In this document: positions 54,498 through 64,000 of the stretch, in pieces | Layout of the letters: the number at the start of each line of letters is the position of its first letter | Position numbering within the stretch: position 1 is the stretch's first letter | Assembly: GCA_947625355.1 (NCBI GenBank) | Contig: CANQOA010000002.1 | Coordinates: 1 to 64,000 of the forward strand | Length of the DNA: 64,000 nucleotides | Origin: an uncultured Oscillospiraceae bacterium | GTDB taxonomy: Bacteria; Bacillota; Clostridia; Oscillospirales; Oscillospiraceae | Direction of reading: 5' to 3' | Position numbers and translations under genes: made by a program | Notes under the pieces: model-generated | What the model was told of the DNA's origin: nothing | The model's database searches: none | The model's input: the letters and a program-made list of their open reading frames with translations, nothing else

Positions 54498-55598
54498 TCA
54501 GTGCTCCCCCTCGGGGACGTCATACAGGTGGCAGAGCGTCTCCTCCGCCTGGAAGAAGCACTCCAGCAGCTTGGGATTGAAGATCCCGCACTGGCCCTCC
54601 CGGATCATGGTCAGCACCGTCTCCCGGGGGAAGGCGTTTTTGTACACCCTCTTGCAGCTGAGGGCGTCGTATACGTCCGCCAGGGACACGATCTGGGCCC
54701 AGGGAGAGATCTCGTCGCCCTTCAGCCCGTCCGGGTAACCCCGGCCGTCCCACCGCTCGTGGTGGTGCAGGGCGATGTCGTAGGCATAATGATAGAACCC
54801 GTTCTCCCGCAGCTGGGGGATCTTCTCCAGAAGGAGGGCTCCCTGGGTGGTGTGGCTCTTCATGATCTCGTATTCCTCCGCCGTCAGCCTGCCGGGCTTG
54901 TTGAGGATCTGGTCGGAGATGGCGATCTTGCCCACGTCGTGCATGATGGCGGCGATGGAGATGTTCTGAATCTCCTCCTCGCTCATGCCCTTGCCCAGCT
55001 CGGTGTTGCGCAGCAGGAACTCCGTGATGTCCCGGATGCGCTGGACATGCTCGCCGGTATCGCCGCCCCGGAACTCGATGGCGGTGGCCAGGGCCTCGAT
55101 CATGCCCTGGTTCAGCTCGATGATCTTCTGCGCGCGCTGGAGCAGCTCGATGTTCTGCTGCTCTACCCGGTGGCCCAGGCGCTTTCTGGCCCGGAACAGC
55201 TCCACCACCGAGTTGATCCGCCGCAGCACCACATAGGGCACCACCGGCTTGAGGATCACGTCCATCACGCCCAGGCGGTACGCCTCCTGCAGGGTGTCGC
55301 CGGTGGCCTCGGCGGTGATGAGGAACACGGGGATGTGCTCCTGCAGGCCGGCGGCGTTGAGATGGCGGAGCATCTCCAGCCCGTCCATTTCCGGCATGAT
55401 CACATCCAGCAGCACTGCACAGTATCTTCCCGGTTCCGCCGTGAGCTTTTCCAGCCCCTCCCGGCCGTTCTCCGCCTCTTCGATGGCATACTGATCGGAG
55501 AAGATATTGTCCAGGATCGCCCGGTTGAACTCATCGTCATCCACGATGAGGATGGTCTCGGCCTCGCTGCCCGTCATTTGCTGAATGATCGCGTCCAT
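54498..55598 (-). CDS. Response regulator with HD-GYP c-di-GMP phosphodiesterase domain
   Basis: ILIVDDDEFNRAILDNIF...VLLDVIMPEMDGLEML; AIMHDVGKIAISDQILNKPGRLT; HHHERWDGRGYPDGLKGDEI; SD AGGAGG before start. Confidence 0.95.
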   Translation of the reverse strand: MDAIIQQMTGSEAETILIVDDDEFNRAILDNIFSDQYAIEEAENGREGLEKLTAEPGRYCAVLLDVIMPEMDGLEMLRHLNAAGLQEHIPVFLITAEATGDTLQEAYRLGVMDVILKPVVPYVVLRRINSVVELFRARKRLGHRVEQQNIELLQRAQKIIELNQGMIEALATAIEFRGGDTGEHVQRIRDITEFLLRNTELGKGMSEEEIQNISIAAIMHDVGKIAISDQILNKPGRLTAEEYEIMKSHTTQGALLLEKIPQLRENGFYHYAYDIALHHHERWDGRGYPDGLKGDEISPWAQIVSLADVYDALSCKRVYKNAFPRETVLTMIREGQCGIFNPKLLECFFQAEETLCHLYDVPEGEH

Positions 55599-55802
55599 GA
55601 ATGCCTCCTGCGCGCAGACATACGCTTTGCATAATCTCTGCAAATCTTATCACGCGTCCGGCCCGTTGTCAACGCCGCCGCCGAAATCTGCCCCGCGCTC
55701 TTGACGGAAAACCCCAAACATGGTACCATCGACAGGGATACATAGTTCTAATTTTTAAGGGCCGCCCCGGGCGGTCTCATCTTACACGACAGGGGGCAGG
55801 AC

Positions 55803-58376
55803 ATGTCCGCCGCCATGAAAAAGAAGCTTGCCGAAAAAAAGAATATCCTCGCCACCATCCTGACGATCTTCCTGATCCTGGGACTCTATCTGACCGCCTA
55901 CGTGCAGGCCGCCGCCTCCATCCGGGACCGGTGCATCGCCCGCATGGAGGAGGGCGTGAACGTGGTGGTGGACGAGATCGCCCAGAAGTTCGCCCGGGAC
56001 AGCCGCATCCTCAACGCCACCGCCGACATCCTGGGGACCGCCGACGAGATCACCGACGAGTCCGTCCGGGAGCTCATGAGCACGGTCGCCCCTCTGGCGG
56101 AGACCATGCAGTTTTTCGTGCTGATGCCCGACGACTCCATCGTCAGCACCACCGGCATCTCCGAAAGCGACAGTGACCTCTCCTTTGCCCGGGAGGCGCC
56201 TCTGGGCGAGCATATCTCCGACCGGATGCACAGCATCGGCTCCGACTCCTATGTGCTGCGCCACTTCGTGCCCATCCAGCGGGACGGCGAGACGGTGGCT
56301 CTGCTGTACGGCGTCACGGATCTGCGCACCCTGCCGAACAGGCTGAACATCCGCAACATCTATAACGCCTCCGCCAGCGTCTACATCATCGACACCCGAA
56401 ACGGCGATTTCATCCTGGACACCTACCACGACGAGCTGGGCAACATCAACCAGTACACCATCGAGGCCGATCCCTCCCGCGAGACCAAAGAGGGGGTGTC
56501 CTGGGAGGAGTATACCGACGACATCCTGAACATGGGCACGGGACTGGTGGTGTTCCGCACCGACAGCACCGACGGCTGGGAGTACATGTACTACGGCCCC
56601 GCCGGTCTGAACGGCTGGTCCATCATCGTGTCCGTGCCGGAGAAGGAGGCCTTCGTCAGCCTCTACGCCGTGCAGCGGATCTTCCTGTTCACCGGCACGC
56701 TGATGGTGATCGTGCTGGTGCTGTACTATTTCTGGTCCCGCCACGCCGCCCAGGCCCACACGCGGGGAGTGGTGGAAAAGGCCGTGCTGGAGGAAAAGCT
56801 GCAAAAGGCCGAGGCGGCCGAGCGGGCCAAGACCATGTTCCTGAGCAACATGAGTCACGACATCCGCACCCCCATGAACGCCATCATCGGCTTCACCACC
56901 CTGGCCGAGACCAACATCGACAACAAGGACCGGGTCCAGGATTACCTGAGCAAGATCATGAGCTCGTCCAACCACCTGCTCAGCCTGATCAACGACATCC
57001 TGGACATGAGCCGCATCGAGTCCGGCCGGCTGAACATCGAGGAAAAGCCCTGCAGCATCTCCGACATCTTCAAGGACATGCGCAACATCCTGCTCACCCA
57101 GATGCAGTCCAAGCAGCTGAACTTCTTCATGGACACCATCGGCGTCATCGACGAGGACATCTACTGCGACAAGCTGCACCTGAACCAGGTGCTTTTGAAC
57201 CTTCTCTCCAACGCCATCAAGTTCACCCCCGCAGGCGGCTCCGTGGCCCTGTCCATCGAGCAGAAGCCCAGCGCCCCCAAGGGCTACGGCGCCTATGAGA
57301 TCCGGGTGAAGGACACCGGCATCGGCATGAGCCCGGAGTTCGCCGCGCATGTGTTCGAGCCCTTCGAGCGGGAAAAGACCAGCACTGTCAGCGGCATCCA
57401 GGGCACCGGTCTGGGCATGGCCATCACCAAGAACATCGTGGACACCATGGGCGGCACCATCCGCGTGGAGACCGAGCAGGGCCGCGGCACCGAGTACATC
57501 GTGGATCTGGAGTTCCGGCTCCAGACCGAGACGAAGCCGGTGGAGACCATCCGGGAGCTGGCGGGACTGCGGTCCCTGGTGGTGGACGACAACTTCTCCA
57601 CCTGCGACAGCGTCAGCAAGATGCTCATCCAGATCGGCATGCGGGCCGAGTGGACCCTCCGGGGCCAGGAGGCCGTGCTCCACGCCCAGCACGCCGCGGA
57701 GCTGGGCGACCCCTTCTACGCCTACATCATCGACTGGGCCCTGCCGGACCTGAACGGCATCGAGGTGGCCCGCCAGATCCGGGCCATCGCCGGGGAGAAC
57801 GTGCCCATCATCGTGCTCACCGCCTATGACTGGAGCCTGATCGAGGACGATGCCCGCAAGGCGGGCGTCACCGCCTTCTGCAACAAGCCCATCTTCCTGT
57901 CCGAGCTGCGGGACACCCTGGTCTCCGCGCTGGACAGGACCGCGCCTCCGGAGGCGGCCGCCTCCGTGCTGCCGCCCACCGGCGAGGAGCTCAAGGGCAA
58001 GCGGCTGCTGCTGGTGGAGGACAACGAGCTCAACCGGGAGATCGCCCAGGAGCTGCTGGAGGAGAGCGGCCTTTTGGTGGAGACCGCCGAGGACGGCACC
58101 GTGGGCGTGGAGAAGGTGAAAGCCTCCCAGCCCGGCTATTACGACCTGATCCTCATGGACGTGCAGATGCCCGTCATGAACGGCTACGACGCCACGCGGG
58201 CCATCCGGGCCCTGGAGGACCCGGCTCTGGCCAATATCCCCATCCTGGCCATGACCGCCAACGCCTTCGAGGAGGACCGGCAGGCCGCCATCGACGCGGG
58301 CATGAACGGCCACCTGGCCAAGCCCATCAACATCGCCAAGCTCATCGAGACCCTGCGGGAGCTTCTGAGCAAATGA
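55803..58376 (+). CDS. Hybrid sensor histidine kinase with two receiver domains
   Basis: dCACHE-like sensor, FLSNMSHDIRTPMNAIIGF H-box, LLNLLSNAIKFTPAGG N-box, DTGIGMS, GTGLGMAIT, two REC domains (LVVDDN...IIDWALPDLNG; LLVEDNELNR...LILMDVQMPVMNGY). Confidence 0.95.
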   Translation: MSAAMKKKLAEKKNILATILTIFLILGLYLTAYVQAAASIRDRCIARMEEGVNVVVDEIAQKFARDSRILNATADILGTADEITDESVRELMSTVAPLAETMQFFVLMPDDSIVSTTGISESDSDLSFAREAPLGEHISDRMHSIGSDSYVLRHFVPIQRDGETVALLYGVTDLRTLPNRLNIRNIYNASASVYIIDTRNGDFILDTYHDELGNINQYTIEADPSRETKEGVSWEEYTDDILNMGTGLVVFRTDSTDGWEYMYYGPAGLNGWSIIVSVPEKEAFVSLYAVQRIFLFTGTLMVIVLVLYYFWSRHAAQAHTRGVVEKAVLEEKLQKAEAAERAKTMFLSNMSHDIRTPMNAIIGFTTLAETNIDNKDRVQDYLSKIMSSSNHLLSLINDILDMSRIESGRLNIEEKPCSISDIFKDMRNILLTQMQSKQLNFFMDTIGVIDEDIYCDKLHLNQVLLNLLSNAIKFTPAGGSVALSIEQKPSAPKGYGAYEIRVKDTGIGMSPEFAAHVFEPFEREKTSTVSGIQGTGLGMAITKNIVDTMGGTIRVETEQGRGTEYIVDLEFRLQTETKPVETIRELAGLRSLVVDDNFSTCDSVSKMLIQIGMRAEWTLRGQEAVLHAQHAAELGDPFYAYIIDWALPDLNGIEVARQIRAIAGENVPIIVLTAYDWSLIEDDARKAGVTAFCNKPIFLSELRDTLVSALDRTAPPEAAASVLPPTGEELKGKRLLLVEDNELNREIAQELLEESGLLVETAEDGTVGVEKVKASQPGYYDLILMDVQMPVMNGYDATRAIRALEDPALANIPILAMTANAFEEDRQAAIDAGMNGHLAKPINIAKLIETLRELLSK

Positions 58377-58411: not shown

Positions 58412-59086
58412 ATGTACACCATCGAGACCCATCTGCACACCACCCACACCAGCAAATGCGGCTGGCTGGAGGCCCCCGTCCTGGCCGAGGCTTACAAGGC
58501 CGCCGGCTATGACGCCATCGCCGTCACCGACCACTACAACCGCACCACCTTTGAATACCTCCAGGTGGACCTGCGCTCCGGCGTCGATAAGGTAGCGGCG
58601 TTCCTCACCGGCTACCGCCGCATGGTGGAAGAGGGCCGAAAGCTCGGCCTGACCATCTACAAGGGCGCGGAGCTGCGTTTCGATGAGTGCGACAACGACT
58701 ATCTGCTCTACAACTGGCCGGACGAGCTGCTGGCGGACCCGGAGAGCATCTTCCGCATGGGCATCGCCGCCTTCGCCCCCCTGGCAAGGGAGGCCGGGGC
58801 GCTGCTGATCCAGGCCCACCCCTTCCGCAAGGGCTGCACGCCGGCCATCCCCTGCTATCTGGACGGCATCGAGGTGGTGAACCTCAACCCCCGCCACGAG
58901 AACCGCAACGATCGGGCGGTGGAATTCGCCGACCAGTTCCACATCGCCATCCGCACCAGCGGCTCGGACTGCCATCGGACCGAGGACATCGCCCGGGGCG
59001 GCATCCGCTCCGAGACCCTGCCCGCCGACGAAGCCGCCTATGTGGCCCTGATGCGCTCCGGCGGCTTCACCCTCATCGGGGCGTAA
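58412..59086 (+). CDS. PHP domain metal-dependent phosphoesterase
   Basis: YTIETHLHTTHTSKCGWLEAPVLAEAYKAAGYDAIAVTDHYN...GAELRF...IQAHPFRKG...SGSDCHRTEDIARGG. Confidence 0.9.
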   Translation: MYTIETHLHTTHTSKCGWLEAPVLAEAYKAAGYDAIAVTDHYNRTTFEYLQVDLRSGVDKVAAFLTGYRRMVEEGRKLGLTIYKGAELRFDECDNDYLLYNWPDELLADPESIFRMGIAAFAPLAREAGALLIQAHPFRKGCTPAIPCYLDGIEVVNLNPRHENRNDRAVEFADQFHIAIRTSGSDCHRTEDIARGGIRSETLPADEAAYVALMRSGGFTLIGA

Positions 59087-60413: not shown

Positions 60414-61295
60414 TTACTGATAAAACTCCCGGATGTACGCCTCCACATCGGCGCGGGTGCCCTGGAAGGGACCGGGGGTCTCCATCTTGAGGGAGACGCA
60501 GGCGGTGGCGTACTGCAGCGCCGTGGGCACGTCCGCGCCCGTCATGCGCATGGCGAGATAGGACCCGAAGGTGGTGTCCCCCCGCCCGGTGCGGCCGGAG
60601 AGGTTCCGGGCCTTGATGGGGCAGGTATAGGTCCCGTGGCCGTCAAAGACCAGGATCTCCGTGTTGTGGGACACCATGACCTCCTTGGCGCCCCAGGCGT
60701 AGAGCTGCTTTGCCGCCGCAGCCCGGTCGGTGAGGCCGGTGAGGATCTCCGCCTCGGCGGCGTCGGTCTTGAAAAAGTCCATATAGGGCAGGTATCTCAT
60801 CTTGTCCGCCCAGTCATGGAACCGCAGTTCCCCGCCCTCGTTGTGGCGCAGAAAGCCCTGGGCGTCGGCGGACACCATCCCCCGGCCGTGCAGCCCCTCG
60901 ATGAGGCTGTTGGGGAAGTCACCGTACAAAAGCCCCGCCAGGTGATACAGCCGGCAGGACACCTCCGGCACCTGGTCCAGCGTCACCGGGTCGGACTGGG
61001 CCTGGCAGCCGCAGTGGCGGCGCTCCCGGTCGGCGGTGAAGTACACGTTGCTCATCAGCGTGGTCACCGGCGAGGGCAGCAGCGCCGCGTCCTCCCCGTA
61101 GCGGCGGAACATCGCCACGATGTCCTCGTCCGCCGGGGACGCCTTCACCGCCGAGAACACCTTCGCGCCGGCGGCCCGGGCGGCGGGGGTGCAGTAGGTG
61201 ACGGCGCCGCCCACGATCAGCTCCTCCCGGCCCGTATAGTCGGTATTCCGGTCCCGCGTGGCGGGGCCGACGATCATCAGATCATATGGTCTCAT
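60414..61295 (-). CDS. PfkB-family carbohydrate kinase
   Basis: MRPYDLMIVGPATRDRNTDYTGREELIVGGAVTYCTPAARAAGAKV...NLSGRTGRGDTTFGSYLAMRM. Confidence 0.85.
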   Translation of the reverse strand: MRPYDLMIVGPATRDRNTDYTGREELIVGGAVTYCTPAARAAGAKVFSAVKASPADEDIVAMFRRYGEDAALLPSPVTTLMSNVYFTADRERRHCGCQAQSDPVTLDQVPEVSCRLYHLAGLLYGDFPNSLIEGLHGRGMVSADAQGFLRHNEGGELRFHDWADKMRYLPYMDFFKTDAAEAEILTGLTDRAAAAKQLYAWGAKEVMVSHNTEILVFDGHGTYTCPIKARNLSGRTGRGDTTFGSYLAMRMTGADVPTALQYATACVSLKMETPGPFQGTRADVEAYIREFYQ

Positions 61296-61317: not shown

Positions 61318-62046
61318 TTATATCCTGCTGCGGCTCAGCTCCATTTTCTGGGTGCTCTCGTCGTTCTCCAGGGCGGCCACGAACATATCCAGCCGCTCCT
61401 TGGCCCGGCGGCCGGAGAAGTCGGCCTTGAAGATGACGGTCACCTCGCCCTCCTTCCCCTCCACCTGGATGTGGGTGATCTTGGCGGAGAAATCCTCCGC
61501 CAGGCGGTTCACCTGCTCCAGCGTGTCGGTCAGGTCCGTGCAGTGCACGGTGAACTGGTACAGCTCATAGTGGTTGCGCATCATCTTCTCCTGCAGCCCC
61601 TCGAACACCACCAGCGTGATCATCATGAAGGCCGCGCCGATGAGCGCCACGCTGTAGTAGCCGCCGCCCACGGCGATGCCCATGCAGGCCGTGGCCCAGA
61701 TGCTGGCCGCGGTGGTCAGGCCCTTGATGCTGACGCCCTCTTTCATGATGGTGCCGGCGCCCAAAAAGCCCATGCCGGTGATGACCTGGGCGCTGAGCCG
61801 GGCCGGGTCCGGGGTGGCCCCATAGGCCCGGTACTGAGCGAAGATCATCTGGCTGGTGGTCATCACGGCGCAGGCGCCGATGGCCACCAGCATGTGGGTG
61901 CGCATGCCGGCGGGCCGATGGGTATACTCCCGCTCGGTGCCCACCACCGCGCCGATGAGCATGGCGCAGCCCAGACGCAGCAGCACCACCCAGGGCGACA
62001 GCGCCAGGGGGGACAGATCTATGGTAACGTCAGTAGCAGTCGGCAT
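61318..62046 (-). CDS. MgtC/SapB family protein
   Basis: LLRLGCAMLIGAVVGTEREYTHRPAGMRTHMLVAIGACAVMTTSQ...GMGFLGAGTIMKEGVSIKGLTTAASIWATACMGIAVGGGYY. Confidence 0.92.
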   Translation of the reverse strand: MPTATDVTIDLSPLALSPWVVLLRLGCAMLIGAVVGTEREYTHRPAGMRTHMLVAIGACAVMTTSQMIFAQYRAYGATPDPARLSAQVITGMGFLGAGTIMKEGVSIKGLTTAASIWATACMGIAVGGGYYSVALIGAAFMMITLVVFEGLQEKMMRNHYELYQFTVHCTDLTDTLEQVNRLAEDFSAKITHIQVEGKEGEVTVIFKADFSGRRAKERLDMFVAALENDESTQKMELSRSRI

Positions 62047-62059
62047 AAGCGACCTCTCT

Positions 62060-63625
62060 TCAAGCGCGATAGCGGGTCCCCTCGCCCGCGGTCAGGGCCC
62101 GGTACGCCTTCTCGATGCGGGCATAGTTGCCGTCCCGGTCCAGGGCGATGCCCCGGCCGATGCCGTCCACGATCATGCCCCGGCCCAGCTGGGCGAGCTT
62201 GCCCTCCACCATCCGCAGCAGCGCGGGGGCGCTGCCCGGCTCGGTGCTCCGGCCGTCGAAGATGATATGCAGATAGATCTCCGGCACGCCCTCGGCCATC
62301 TCCGTGAGCATCAGGGGATAGTCGATGCAGCCGTGGCTGGACTTCTCCGTCAGCAGGGCGATCAGATGCAGCGCCCCGCTCTTTTTGGCGTTCTCGATGA
62401 ACCGCAGGAACACCGGATTCTTGCTGAAGGAACCGTCCTTGATGGCGTTGTCCATGCGCACGTCGTCCTGGGCCACGATCCGGCCCGCGCCCAGATTGGT
62501 GTGGCCGGCCTCGGAGTTGCCGGCCTTGCCGGCCTTCAGGCCCACGTCCTCCCCGGAGGCGCGCAGCTTGCTGTTGGGATAGGCCGCCAGCAGCGCGTCC
62601 CAGTCATGGGTGTCCGCCACAAACAGCGCGTCGCCCTCGTCGCCGGTGCCGAAGCCCCAGCCGTCCAGGATGATGAGCATCATCTTCTTGCCGGTGATGT
62701 TCCCGGAGGTGATGAGGCTCTCGCCGGTCATCTCGGCGGGCTTTTTAAGGCCCAGTACGGACAGGACCGTGGGGGCCACGTCTCCCAGCCGGCCGTCCCG
62801 CAGGGTCATGTCCCGGCCCTGGGGGTCCAGCACCACGAAGGGCACCAGGTTGGTGGTGTGGGCGCCGTCAGGCTTGCCGTCCTTGGTGTACAGCTTTTCG
62901 ATGTTGCCGTGGTCGGCGGTGACCGCCACCACATAGCCGTGGGCCTTGCCGTACTCCGCCGCGTCACGCACCTTTTCGCTGACGATGGCGGCGGCCTTGA
63001 TCTTGGCCTCGGTGTTCTGGGTGTGGCCGATCACGTCGCCGTTGGCGAAGTTGGTGAGGATGAAGTCATAGCCCTCGTCCACGGCGGCCTTGACCTTCTC
63101 CGCCACCTCCGGCAGGCTCAGCTCCGGCTTCTGGTCGAAGGGGACGCCCTTCAGGGAGGGCACCCGCACGTCCGTCTCGCCGGGGAAGGGCTGGTTCACG
63201 CCGCCGTTGAAGAAGAACGTCACATGGGCGAACTTCTCCGACTCGGAGCAGTGGAACTGGGTCAGGCCCGCTTCGCTGATCACCTGGGCCAGGGGCTTTT
63301 GCACCCGCTCGGGGGCAAAGGCGATGGGCAGGTCCTTGAGCTTCTCGTGGTACATGGTCATGATGGCGAACTCCAGCCCGCTCATGTCCGGCCGGGCAAA
63401 ATGGGGGAAGTCCCTGTCGGTGAACGCCTCGGTCAGCTCCACCTCCCGCTCGCCCCGGCGGCAGCAGAAGATCACGTGGTCCCCGTCCTTGATCCGGCCC
63501 ACGGGCGCGCCGGTCCCGTCCTCCAGGATCATGGGCTCCAGGCTGTAATCGGTCTGGCCCGCGGCATAGGCAGCCTCCACCGCCCTGGCCAGGGACTCTC
63601 CCCCGTGAAGCGTTTTCTCAGTCAT
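62060..63625 (-). CDS. gpmI: 2,3-bisphosphoglycerate-independent phosphoglycerate mutase, circularly permuted
   Basis: All iPGM motifs present but in permuted order: VGRIKDGDHVIF / EKFAHVTFFFNGG / NFANGDVIGHT / TADHGN / DGAHTTN / GDVAPTVL...EMTGESLI, then MMLIILDGWGFG / KAGNSEAGHTNLGAGRIV / DGRSTEPGSA / ALDRDGNYARIEKAYRALTAGEGTRYRA*. Confidence 0.92.
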   Translation of the reverse strand: MTEKTLHGGESLARAVEAAYAAGQTDYSLEPMILEDGTGAPVGRIKDGDHVIFCCRRGEREVELTEAFTDRDFPHFARPDMSGLEFAIMTMYHEKLKDLPIAFAPERVQKPLAQVISEAGLTQFHCSESEKFAHVTFFFNGGVNQPFPGETDVRVPSLKGVPFDQKPELSLPEVAEKVKAAVDEGYDFILTNFANGDVIGHTQNTEAKIKAAAIVSEKVRDAAEYGKAHGYVVAVTADHGNIEKLYTKDGKPDGAHTTNLVPFVVLDPQGRDMTLRDGRLGDVAPTVLSVLGLKKPAEMTGESLITSGNITGKKMMLIILDGWGFGTGDEGDALFVADTHDWDALLAAYPNSKLRASGEDVGLKAGKAGNSEAGHTNLGAGRIVAQDDVRMDNAIKDGSFSKNPVFLRFIENAKKSGALHLIALLTEKSSHGCIDYPLMLTEMAEGVPEIYLHIIFDGRSTEPGSAPALLRMVEGKLAQLGRGMIVDGIGRGIALDRDGNYARIEKAYRALTAGEGTRYRA

Positions 63626-63638
63626 GATAAACCCCTCC

Positions 63639-64000
63639 TCAGACCAGCGGCGGGAAGATATCCAGCAGCTGGGTAAAATGCGTGATGAACGCGTCCGGCT
63701 CGTTCTCCTCGGTGACGGCCTGGTGCTTCTTGCCGGGATAGCGCACGCCGATGGTCATGCCCAGGCCCGCGGCCTTGGCGCCCACGATGTCCCGGTCCAG
63801 GTTGTCCCCCACGAAGCAGGTCCGGGCCGGGTCCGCACCGGTCTCCTCCAGCGCGTAATAGTAGATGGCCGGGTGGGGCTTGCGGATCAGGCACAGGGAG
63901 GACTGCTGCACGGACTTGAAGTAAGGCCGCAGCCCGTCCTTATCCAGCCACTCGTCCACCTCGTGCACGCCCACCAGGTCGCTGACGATGGCCATGGTAT
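63639..64000 (-). CDS. HAD-family hydrolase, partial (N-terminus beyond window end)
   Basis: MAIVSDLVGVHEVDEWLDKDGLRPYFKSV...KPHPAIYYYALEETGADPARTCFVGDNLDRDIVGAKAAGLGMTIGV. Confidence 0.85.
   Translation of the reverse strand, partial: TMAIVSDLVGVHEVDEWLDKDGLRPYFKSVQQSSLCLIRKPHPAIYYYALEETGADPARTCFVGDNLDRDIVGAKAAGLGMTIGVRYPGKKHQAVTEENEPDAFITHFTQLLDIFPPLV

Follow-up and report, generated by a model that had tools for sequence, protein, structure and literature searches.

The closest described relative of the protein analysed here is the canonical cofactor-independent phosphoglycerate mutase (GpmI or iPGM; TIGR01307), known from the Geobacillus structures 1EJJ and 1O98. The protein encoded at positions 62060-63625 of the window, by which is meant the whole 64,000-nucleotide stretch of DNA that was analysed, shares with this enzyme both domains, the metal ligands, the nucleophile Ser62 and residues H123, R153, R185, R191, R261, R264 and K336, but differs from it in that its halves are swapped, Asp154 is replaced by Ser, the S124-H125 pair has become Gly followed by Cys, Asn or Ser, the NFRPDR motif reads CCRRGER, and the gene context is not glycolytic. 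Other alkaline-phosphatase-superfamily phosphomutases, aPGM (TIGR00306) and DeoB, match it weakly and in the phosphatase block only; their cap domains differ, whereas the permuted protein retains the iPGM transferase domain. Natural circular permutation of core metabolic enzymes is rare.

Three further systems resemble the gene neighbourhood. TM0415 of Thermotoga maritima has been described as a PPi-dependent myo-inositol kinase with a Km of 12 mM for myo-inositol (PMC5931981), and a PfkB-family kinase encoded close to the permuted gene is like it in its RXGRGD motif and in its donor and acceptor residues, except that F221 has become Ile; unlike TM0415 in the T. maritima operon, this kinase adjoins HAD proteins, the permuted iPGM and a membrane pyrophosphatase. 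As in Bacillus-type iol clusters, iolE, iolB, iolD and iolG are found near or beside the permuted cluster, which differs from those clusters in its low-scoring IolB, in having no IolC above cut-off, and in its extra HAD, pyrophosphatase and permuted genes. The third is a cyclic 2,3-diphosphoglycerate (cDPG) synthetase context, seen in a second group of relatives (group 2; the window's gene belongs to group 1), where the same permuted enzyme occurs with an ABC importer similar to that of group 1, but with a GntR rather than a LacI regulator and with no inositol genes seen.

The permuted gene and its product

The gene and its parts, with canonical residues in 1EJJ numbering, lie as follows:

62060..63625, minus strand: permuted iPGM gene, 521 aa plus stop (ATG open reading frame; phmmer; Pfam/NCBIfam; same-order homologues)
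62693..63625, minus strand: residues 1-311, canonical C-terminal half (alignment to 1EJJ 219-510)
62684..62710, minus strand: linker, residues 306-314, TSGNITGKK, from old C-terminus to old N-terminus (varies among homologues)
62063..62683, minus strand: residues 315-521, canonical N-terminal part (alignment to 1EJJ 4-214)
62513..62515, minus strand: Ser371 codon, equivalent to catalytic Ser62 (1EJJ alignment and residue table)
62246..62248, minus strand: Ser460 codon, at the canonical Asp154 position, DGRD to DGRS (changed in every permuted homologue)

In this protein the canonical chain order is absent and the halves are exchanged. Residues 1-311 hold the second part of the transferase domain, followed by the phosphatase domain, and carry the metal ligands D403/H407, D444/H445 and H462 together with R261, R264 and K336; residues 315-521 carry D12, the nucleophile S62, H123, R153, R185 and R191. 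When the PDB was searched with phmmer, only iPGMs were matched, each in two stretches, with 1EJJ as the best match (E 1.2e-101): query residues 15-306 correspond to 1EJJ 219-510 and residues 313-520 to 1EJJ 4-214, the blocks being swapped with nothing lost. The new termini map between positions 214 and 219 of 1EJJ, within a transferase-domain loop. PF06415 (iPGM_N, the transferase domain), whose first part is found at residues 392-517, and PF01676, the metalloenzyme domain into which it is inserted, both score above cut-off, each as two stretches in swapped order. The NCBIfam model TIGR01307 is also matched in two stretches (458.6 bits, cut-off 330.65), and NF003897 reaches 375.8 bits, under its cut-off of 862. 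Because it passes TIGR01307, the permuted protein is an annotation trap, which pipelines would name phosphoglycerate mutase.

A preliminary description of this DNA had placed a single 521-aa reading frame here, and its position proved exact, with an ATG start on the minus strand. The GNSEAGH (62501-62521) and TADHGN (62903-62920) motifs and the EMTGESLI..linker..MLIILDGWG junction were all located as it had claimed, the junction reading EMTGESLI-TSGNITGKK-MMLIILDGWG at residues 298-324, and the swapped-block alignment to canonical GpmI that it had expected was obtained with phmmer against 1EJJ, in two stretches of exchanged order. A 606-aa open frame also lies antisense to the permuted gene (61856-63676, plus strand); frames of this kind occur repeatedly opposite genes of these GC-rich loci, which looks like an effect of composition.

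The predicted structure agrees with the sequence comparison. An AlphaFold2 model, run on an alignment of 42 permuted proteins, gave a confident fold (mean pLDDT 91.3, pTM 0.82), and with Foldseek iPGMs were its only significant PDB matches (22 chains, E <= 0.001). Against 1EJJ, 1O98 and 1O99, about 304 residues aligned at 2.6 A (TM 0.52) in one block, since Foldseek preserves chain order, which is the expected result for a permuted chain.

Distribution and origin of the permuted form

A scan of GTDB genomes gave 69 loci. Of these, 57 encode permuted proteins of full or nearly full length, with identities of 68-92%, and a distant locus (L068) has this order at 43% identity. Beyond that scan, 398 sampled genomes of the phylum gave 11 further loci in permuted order at 40-44% identity, from four other families (f79, f66, f85 and f91). 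More than 60 other assembled genomes thus have the permuted form, with carriers from rabbit, rumen, omasum and other samples. Its occurrence in the window's genus is patchy: 8 of 35 genomes have the gene, either intact or divided among contigs, and a ninth has a fragment; among 388 genomes of the class searched with a group 2 query (E <= 1e-95), a single carrier besides the window genome was found, and the permuted gene is therefore uncommon. No relative of the permuted protein was matched in the viral contigs searched.

Nearly all of the carriers found are metagenome-assembled genomes, as would be expected if assembly or binning had fused two halves of a normal gpmI. The likelihood of such an artefact is nonetheless negligible: the 57 loci come from varied samples and show the same order with their own signature residues, and the normal gpmI of the window genome is only about 43% identical to the permuted protein, in both blocks. 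An assembly chimaera was rejected on the same-order homologues at these loci and in the second group at about 40% identity. The gene is also under purifying selection, with dN/dS of 0.20-0.21 against its three closest relatives, and 0.38 and 0.50 against two more distant ones.

In a maximum-likelihood tree, for which the permuted chains were restored to canonical order, a 100/100 branch sets 38 canonical sequences apart from the whole permuted set, to which L068 also belongs; the tree is unrooted, its canonical sample comes nearly all from one phylum, and the L068 branch is long. Judged from these sequences, one permutation event would suffice for all copies seen, and the permuted order is presumably derived, since canonical order is widespread; gene duplication/fusion followed by re-cutting, as first proposed, is a plausible origin. 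The old termini are joined, the new termini lie in another loop, both blocks are complete and the arrangement is found in independent genomes. Natural circular permutation of GpmI is strongly supported, and it is practically certain that a real, conserved, circularly permuted iPGM subfamily is at hand; the preliminary identification was confirmed by phmmer, the same-order homologues, the tree and the model. No description of a permuted phosphoglycerate mutase was found in the open-access literature searched, most subscription papers lying outside that search.

The record with the distant locus L068 (G454) is named Candidatus Undinarchaeales, but this assignment to an archaeal host was set aside. 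This assembly measures 3.8 Mb, against 0.6-1.1 Mb in nine other genomes of the named phylum, in none of which the permuted gene was found, and it is likely a mislabelled MAG or a mixed bin.

Active site and substrate pocket

When 37 canonical iPGMs of the same phylum were compared with the 69 permuted sequences (1EJJ numbering), D12, S62, H123, R153, R185, R191, R261, R264, K336, D403, H407, D444, H445 and H462 were identical throughout. The ligands of the two-metal site and the Ser nucleophile (D12, S62, D403, H407, D444, H445 and H462) are thus kept in 69/69 permuted sequences, and the ligands agree with those given for the C. elegans enzyme (PMC5382265). In the phosphoglycerate-pocket set (H123, R153, D154, R185, R191, R261, R264 and K336) all residues are kept except D154, which is Asp in 37/37 canonical sequences, Ser in 68 permuted ones from group 1 and group 2, and Gly in L068. 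S124 has become Gly in 69/69 permuted sequences, and H125 is lost in all of them, being replaced by C, N or S. In total, 28 positions fixed in canonical sequences are replaced in permuted ones, most of them around 121-128, 154-155, 189-195, 231 and 259-266. In known iPGM structures these regions form the part that holds the glycerate, and in the Geobacillus structures Asp154 has a role in proton transfer. This pattern of replacement would speak of changed specificity or a changed second half-reaction, not of decay.

The list of retained catalytic residues first given for this protein was correct, 14 positions being verified against 1EJJ, but the change of Asp154 to Ser had been overlooked. The description of the protein as a GpmI that is "probably active" is on weaker ground: the nucleophile, the metal site and the arginines that bind phosphate are all retained, but phosphoglycerate mutase activity is doubtful, with Asp154 lost and the pocket rebuilt. 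A different substrate is most likely, since the whole clade has replacements at Asp154 and in the transferase pocket around it. The permutation coincides with a clade-wide rebuilding of the pocket, and the subfamily is thereby a natural experiment on whether permuting an enzyme can lead to a new function.

The chemistry of iPGM is probably retained, in which case Ser371 would take the phosphate of the substrate to form phosphoserine, and this phosphate would then be either returned at another position (mutase) or passed to water (phosphatase). Between an intramolecular mutase and a phosphatase the balance is even. The loss of Asp154 might mean that the re-phosphorylation step is lost and that water hydrolyses the phosphoserine, making the protein a pure phosphatase, one more dephosphorylating enzyme beside the HADs; the Asp154 and S124-H125 changes lie on the side that holds the dephosphorylated intermediate, and several neighbours are phosphatase-like. 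This stricter version is somewhat unlikely, as transferase-domain residues H123, R153, R185 and R191 are invariant and would hardly be needed by a plain phosphatase. A pseudo-enzyme or regulator that retains only the fold is highly improbable: HAD neighbours with a changed motif I make degenerate enzymes conceivable in this cluster, but the nucleophile and all of the metal ligands are unchanged across the 69 sequences, and dN/dS is about 0.2 against the nearest species.

Other phosphoglycerate mutases in carrier genomes

The preliminary description had asked whether a canonical gpmI exists elsewhere in the genome. One of 524 aa is found in the window genome (G000:C32:20676-22193), and most of the genus likewise has one. 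Gene content was checked through searches and sequence stretches, and among carriers without canonical gpmI, a dPGM was found in G457, G454 and, as a partial gene, G459, and proteins of about 400 aa with PF01676 were found in three f79 genomes (G108, G182 and G441); the latter, which are aPGM- or DeoB-like, also occur in relatives without the permuted gene. A second phosphoglycerate mutase or similar gene is thus present in nearly all carriers checked, the exception being G458 (L055), where neither a canonical iPGM nor a dPGM above cut-off was found beside the permuted gene; this may reflect incompleteness, or the permuted enzyme may serve as its phosphoglycerate mutase.

As other such genes coexist in nearly all genomes checked, a housekeeping role was judged unlikely, and the permuted enzyme is probably not the housekeeping phosphoglycerate mutase. 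It could still be a second 3PG/2PG mutase, permuted by accident, serving as an isozyme for extra lower glycolysis in an inositol-fed cell. The retained metal, nucleophile and phosphate-binding residues, the TIGR01307 score, the single genome with no other mutase found and the cDPG synthetase homologue adjoining the gene in group 2a are all in keeping with such an isozyme, which is nevertheless unlikely, given the loss of Asp154 in 69/69 sequences with a rebuilt transferase pocket, the usual coexistence of canonical gpmI, and cluster content that is related to inositol and phosphate.

The group 1 gene cluster

Three neighbours of the permuted gene lie in the window:

60414..61295, minus strand: PfkB-family kinase with RTGRGD motif, predicted PPi-dependent inositol kinase (TM0415 PPi and inositol residues)
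61318..62046, minus strand: MgtC-family membrane protein (in about 30 of 59 loci)
63639..63998, minus strand, running on to 64373 outside the window: C-terminal part of the HAD-like protein HAD_E, 244 aa (directly upstream in most loci)

With small variation between loci, the group 1 order is ABC permease, ATPase, binding protein, small membrane protein, HAD_A, LacI regulator (opposite strand), HAD_B, HAD_C, HAD_D, HAD_E, permuted gene, MgtC, membrane pyrophosphatase and PfkB kinase, and on contig C2 of the window genome the cluster spans 60414 to about 74870. Across 59 loci, HADs are neighbours at 57, LacI at 46 and PfkB at 45, and a membrane H+/Na+-pyrophosphatase lies inside the cluster at 24 (e.g. 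L014:8603-10690). No cluster of this kind was found described in the open-access literature searched. The HAD-like proteins, four or five in number (window 63639-63998, and contig C2 up to 68914), show D-x-G instead of D-x-D in every readable motif I, and HAD_C and HAD_E reach between-species identities of up to 96-97%, above that of the permuted enzyme.

Similarity between the PfkB protein and TM0415 extends over the full length (E 5e-42). Four of the five residues of the PPi-donor set are identical (K171, R229, R232 and M266, with F221 replaced), as are the acceptor residues D11, N78, Q141 and R145; the RTGRGD motif is conserved in 45 loci, and within the genus the kinase is present in exactly the nine genomes that have the permuted gene or its fragment. 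By sequence, it is predicted to be a PPi-dependent inositol kinase. Its assignment as IolC was rejected, with 20.7 bits on the IolC model against the E value for TM0415. The membrane pyrophosphatase beside a kinase with PPi-donor residues has the appearance of a PPi-centred module.

Link to inositol catabolism

In two genomes (G455 and G456), the importer genes are immediately preceded by iolE, iolB, iolD and iolG in the same orientation; in G455, the stretch from iolE through PfkB is uninterrupted and measures about 21 kb. The same four genes are next door to the cluster in divergent orientation in G001 and share a contig with it in G022, and in G003 the contig that holds the iol genes has the permease gene of the importer at its edge. 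The window genome has its four iol genes on a separate contig (C48), encoding proteins 85-92% identical to those of G001; in G458, the roughly 9 kb of sequence past the importer showed no iol genes. IolB scores below the NCBIfam cut-off, and no IolC was found above cut-off in the genomes tested. Presence of iolB and of the permuted gene agree in 33 of 35 genomes of the genus (Fisher p 3e-6), a figure inflated by shared ancestry, as the co-occurrence may partly reflect one subclade.

For group 1, an inositol-phosphate reading is best supported by context, and an origin of the substrate in inositol metabolism is modestly favoured. The overall best explanation, to which we give a probability of about 0.6, is that the permuted protein is a re-purposed phosphoserine phosphotransferase of inositol-phosphate metabolism, with its substrate predicted. 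The earlier account identified the permutation correctly but oversimplified the function, in view of the coexisting phosphoglycerate mutases and the inositol-linked cluster. In the phosphotransferase reading, the ABC transporter would bring in either an inositol phosphate or a phosphorylated compound arising from inositol breakdown, the HAD proteins and the permuted enzyme would trim or rearrange it, and the PPi-using inositol kinase and membrane pyrophosphatase would connect to the iolG-E-D-B pathway.

A more specific scheme makes the permuted iPGM an inositol-phosphate mutase. Here inositol phosphates, such as those derived from plant phytate in the guts of herbivores, would be imported by the cluster and stripped of phosphates by several HAD phosphatases, and the permuted enzyme would shift a remaining phosphate to the position used by the PPi-linked inositol kinase, which would run towards inositol and PPi. 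The membrane pyrophosphatase would harvest this PPi, and the ring would then enter the iol pathway. So detailed a scheme is quite unlikely to hold in full. The permuted gene marks a conserved, uncharacterised cluster of gut bacteria that ties together inositol breakdown, pyrophosphate and HAD proteins.

Group 2 relatives and flanking genes

In families f79, f66 and f91, the order is GntR, cDPG synthetase homologue, ABC transporter and permuted gene, the importer's permease and ATPase resembling those of group 1. The synthetase homologue matches 9SXB with E 4e-130, and such homologues of the archaeal enzyme lie in bacterial operons at L139:2170-3522, L140:1864-3207, L141:1916-3256 and L144:1067-2398. 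No inositol genes were seen in the group 2a context. This context points to phosphoglycerate-type substrates, counting against the inositol reading. As the contexts of the two groups differ, the subfamily may serve different phosphorylated compounds, and an imported phosphorylated compound may be the theme common to groups 1 and 2a. cDPG has been described as found exclusively in hyperthermophilic methanogens (PMC10690619), and a bacterial role for it is therefore worth a look. In the remaining family, f85, a rapZ-like gene, read from sequence, adjoins the permuted gene.

Beyond the cluster, reading of the window's sequence also gave a PHP-family-like protein at 58412-59086, found near the cluster in about 8 loci too, a hybrid sensor kinase with receiver domains at 55803-58376, and, on the strand opposite to the sensor kinase, a receiver and HD-GYP-like protein at 54498-55643.
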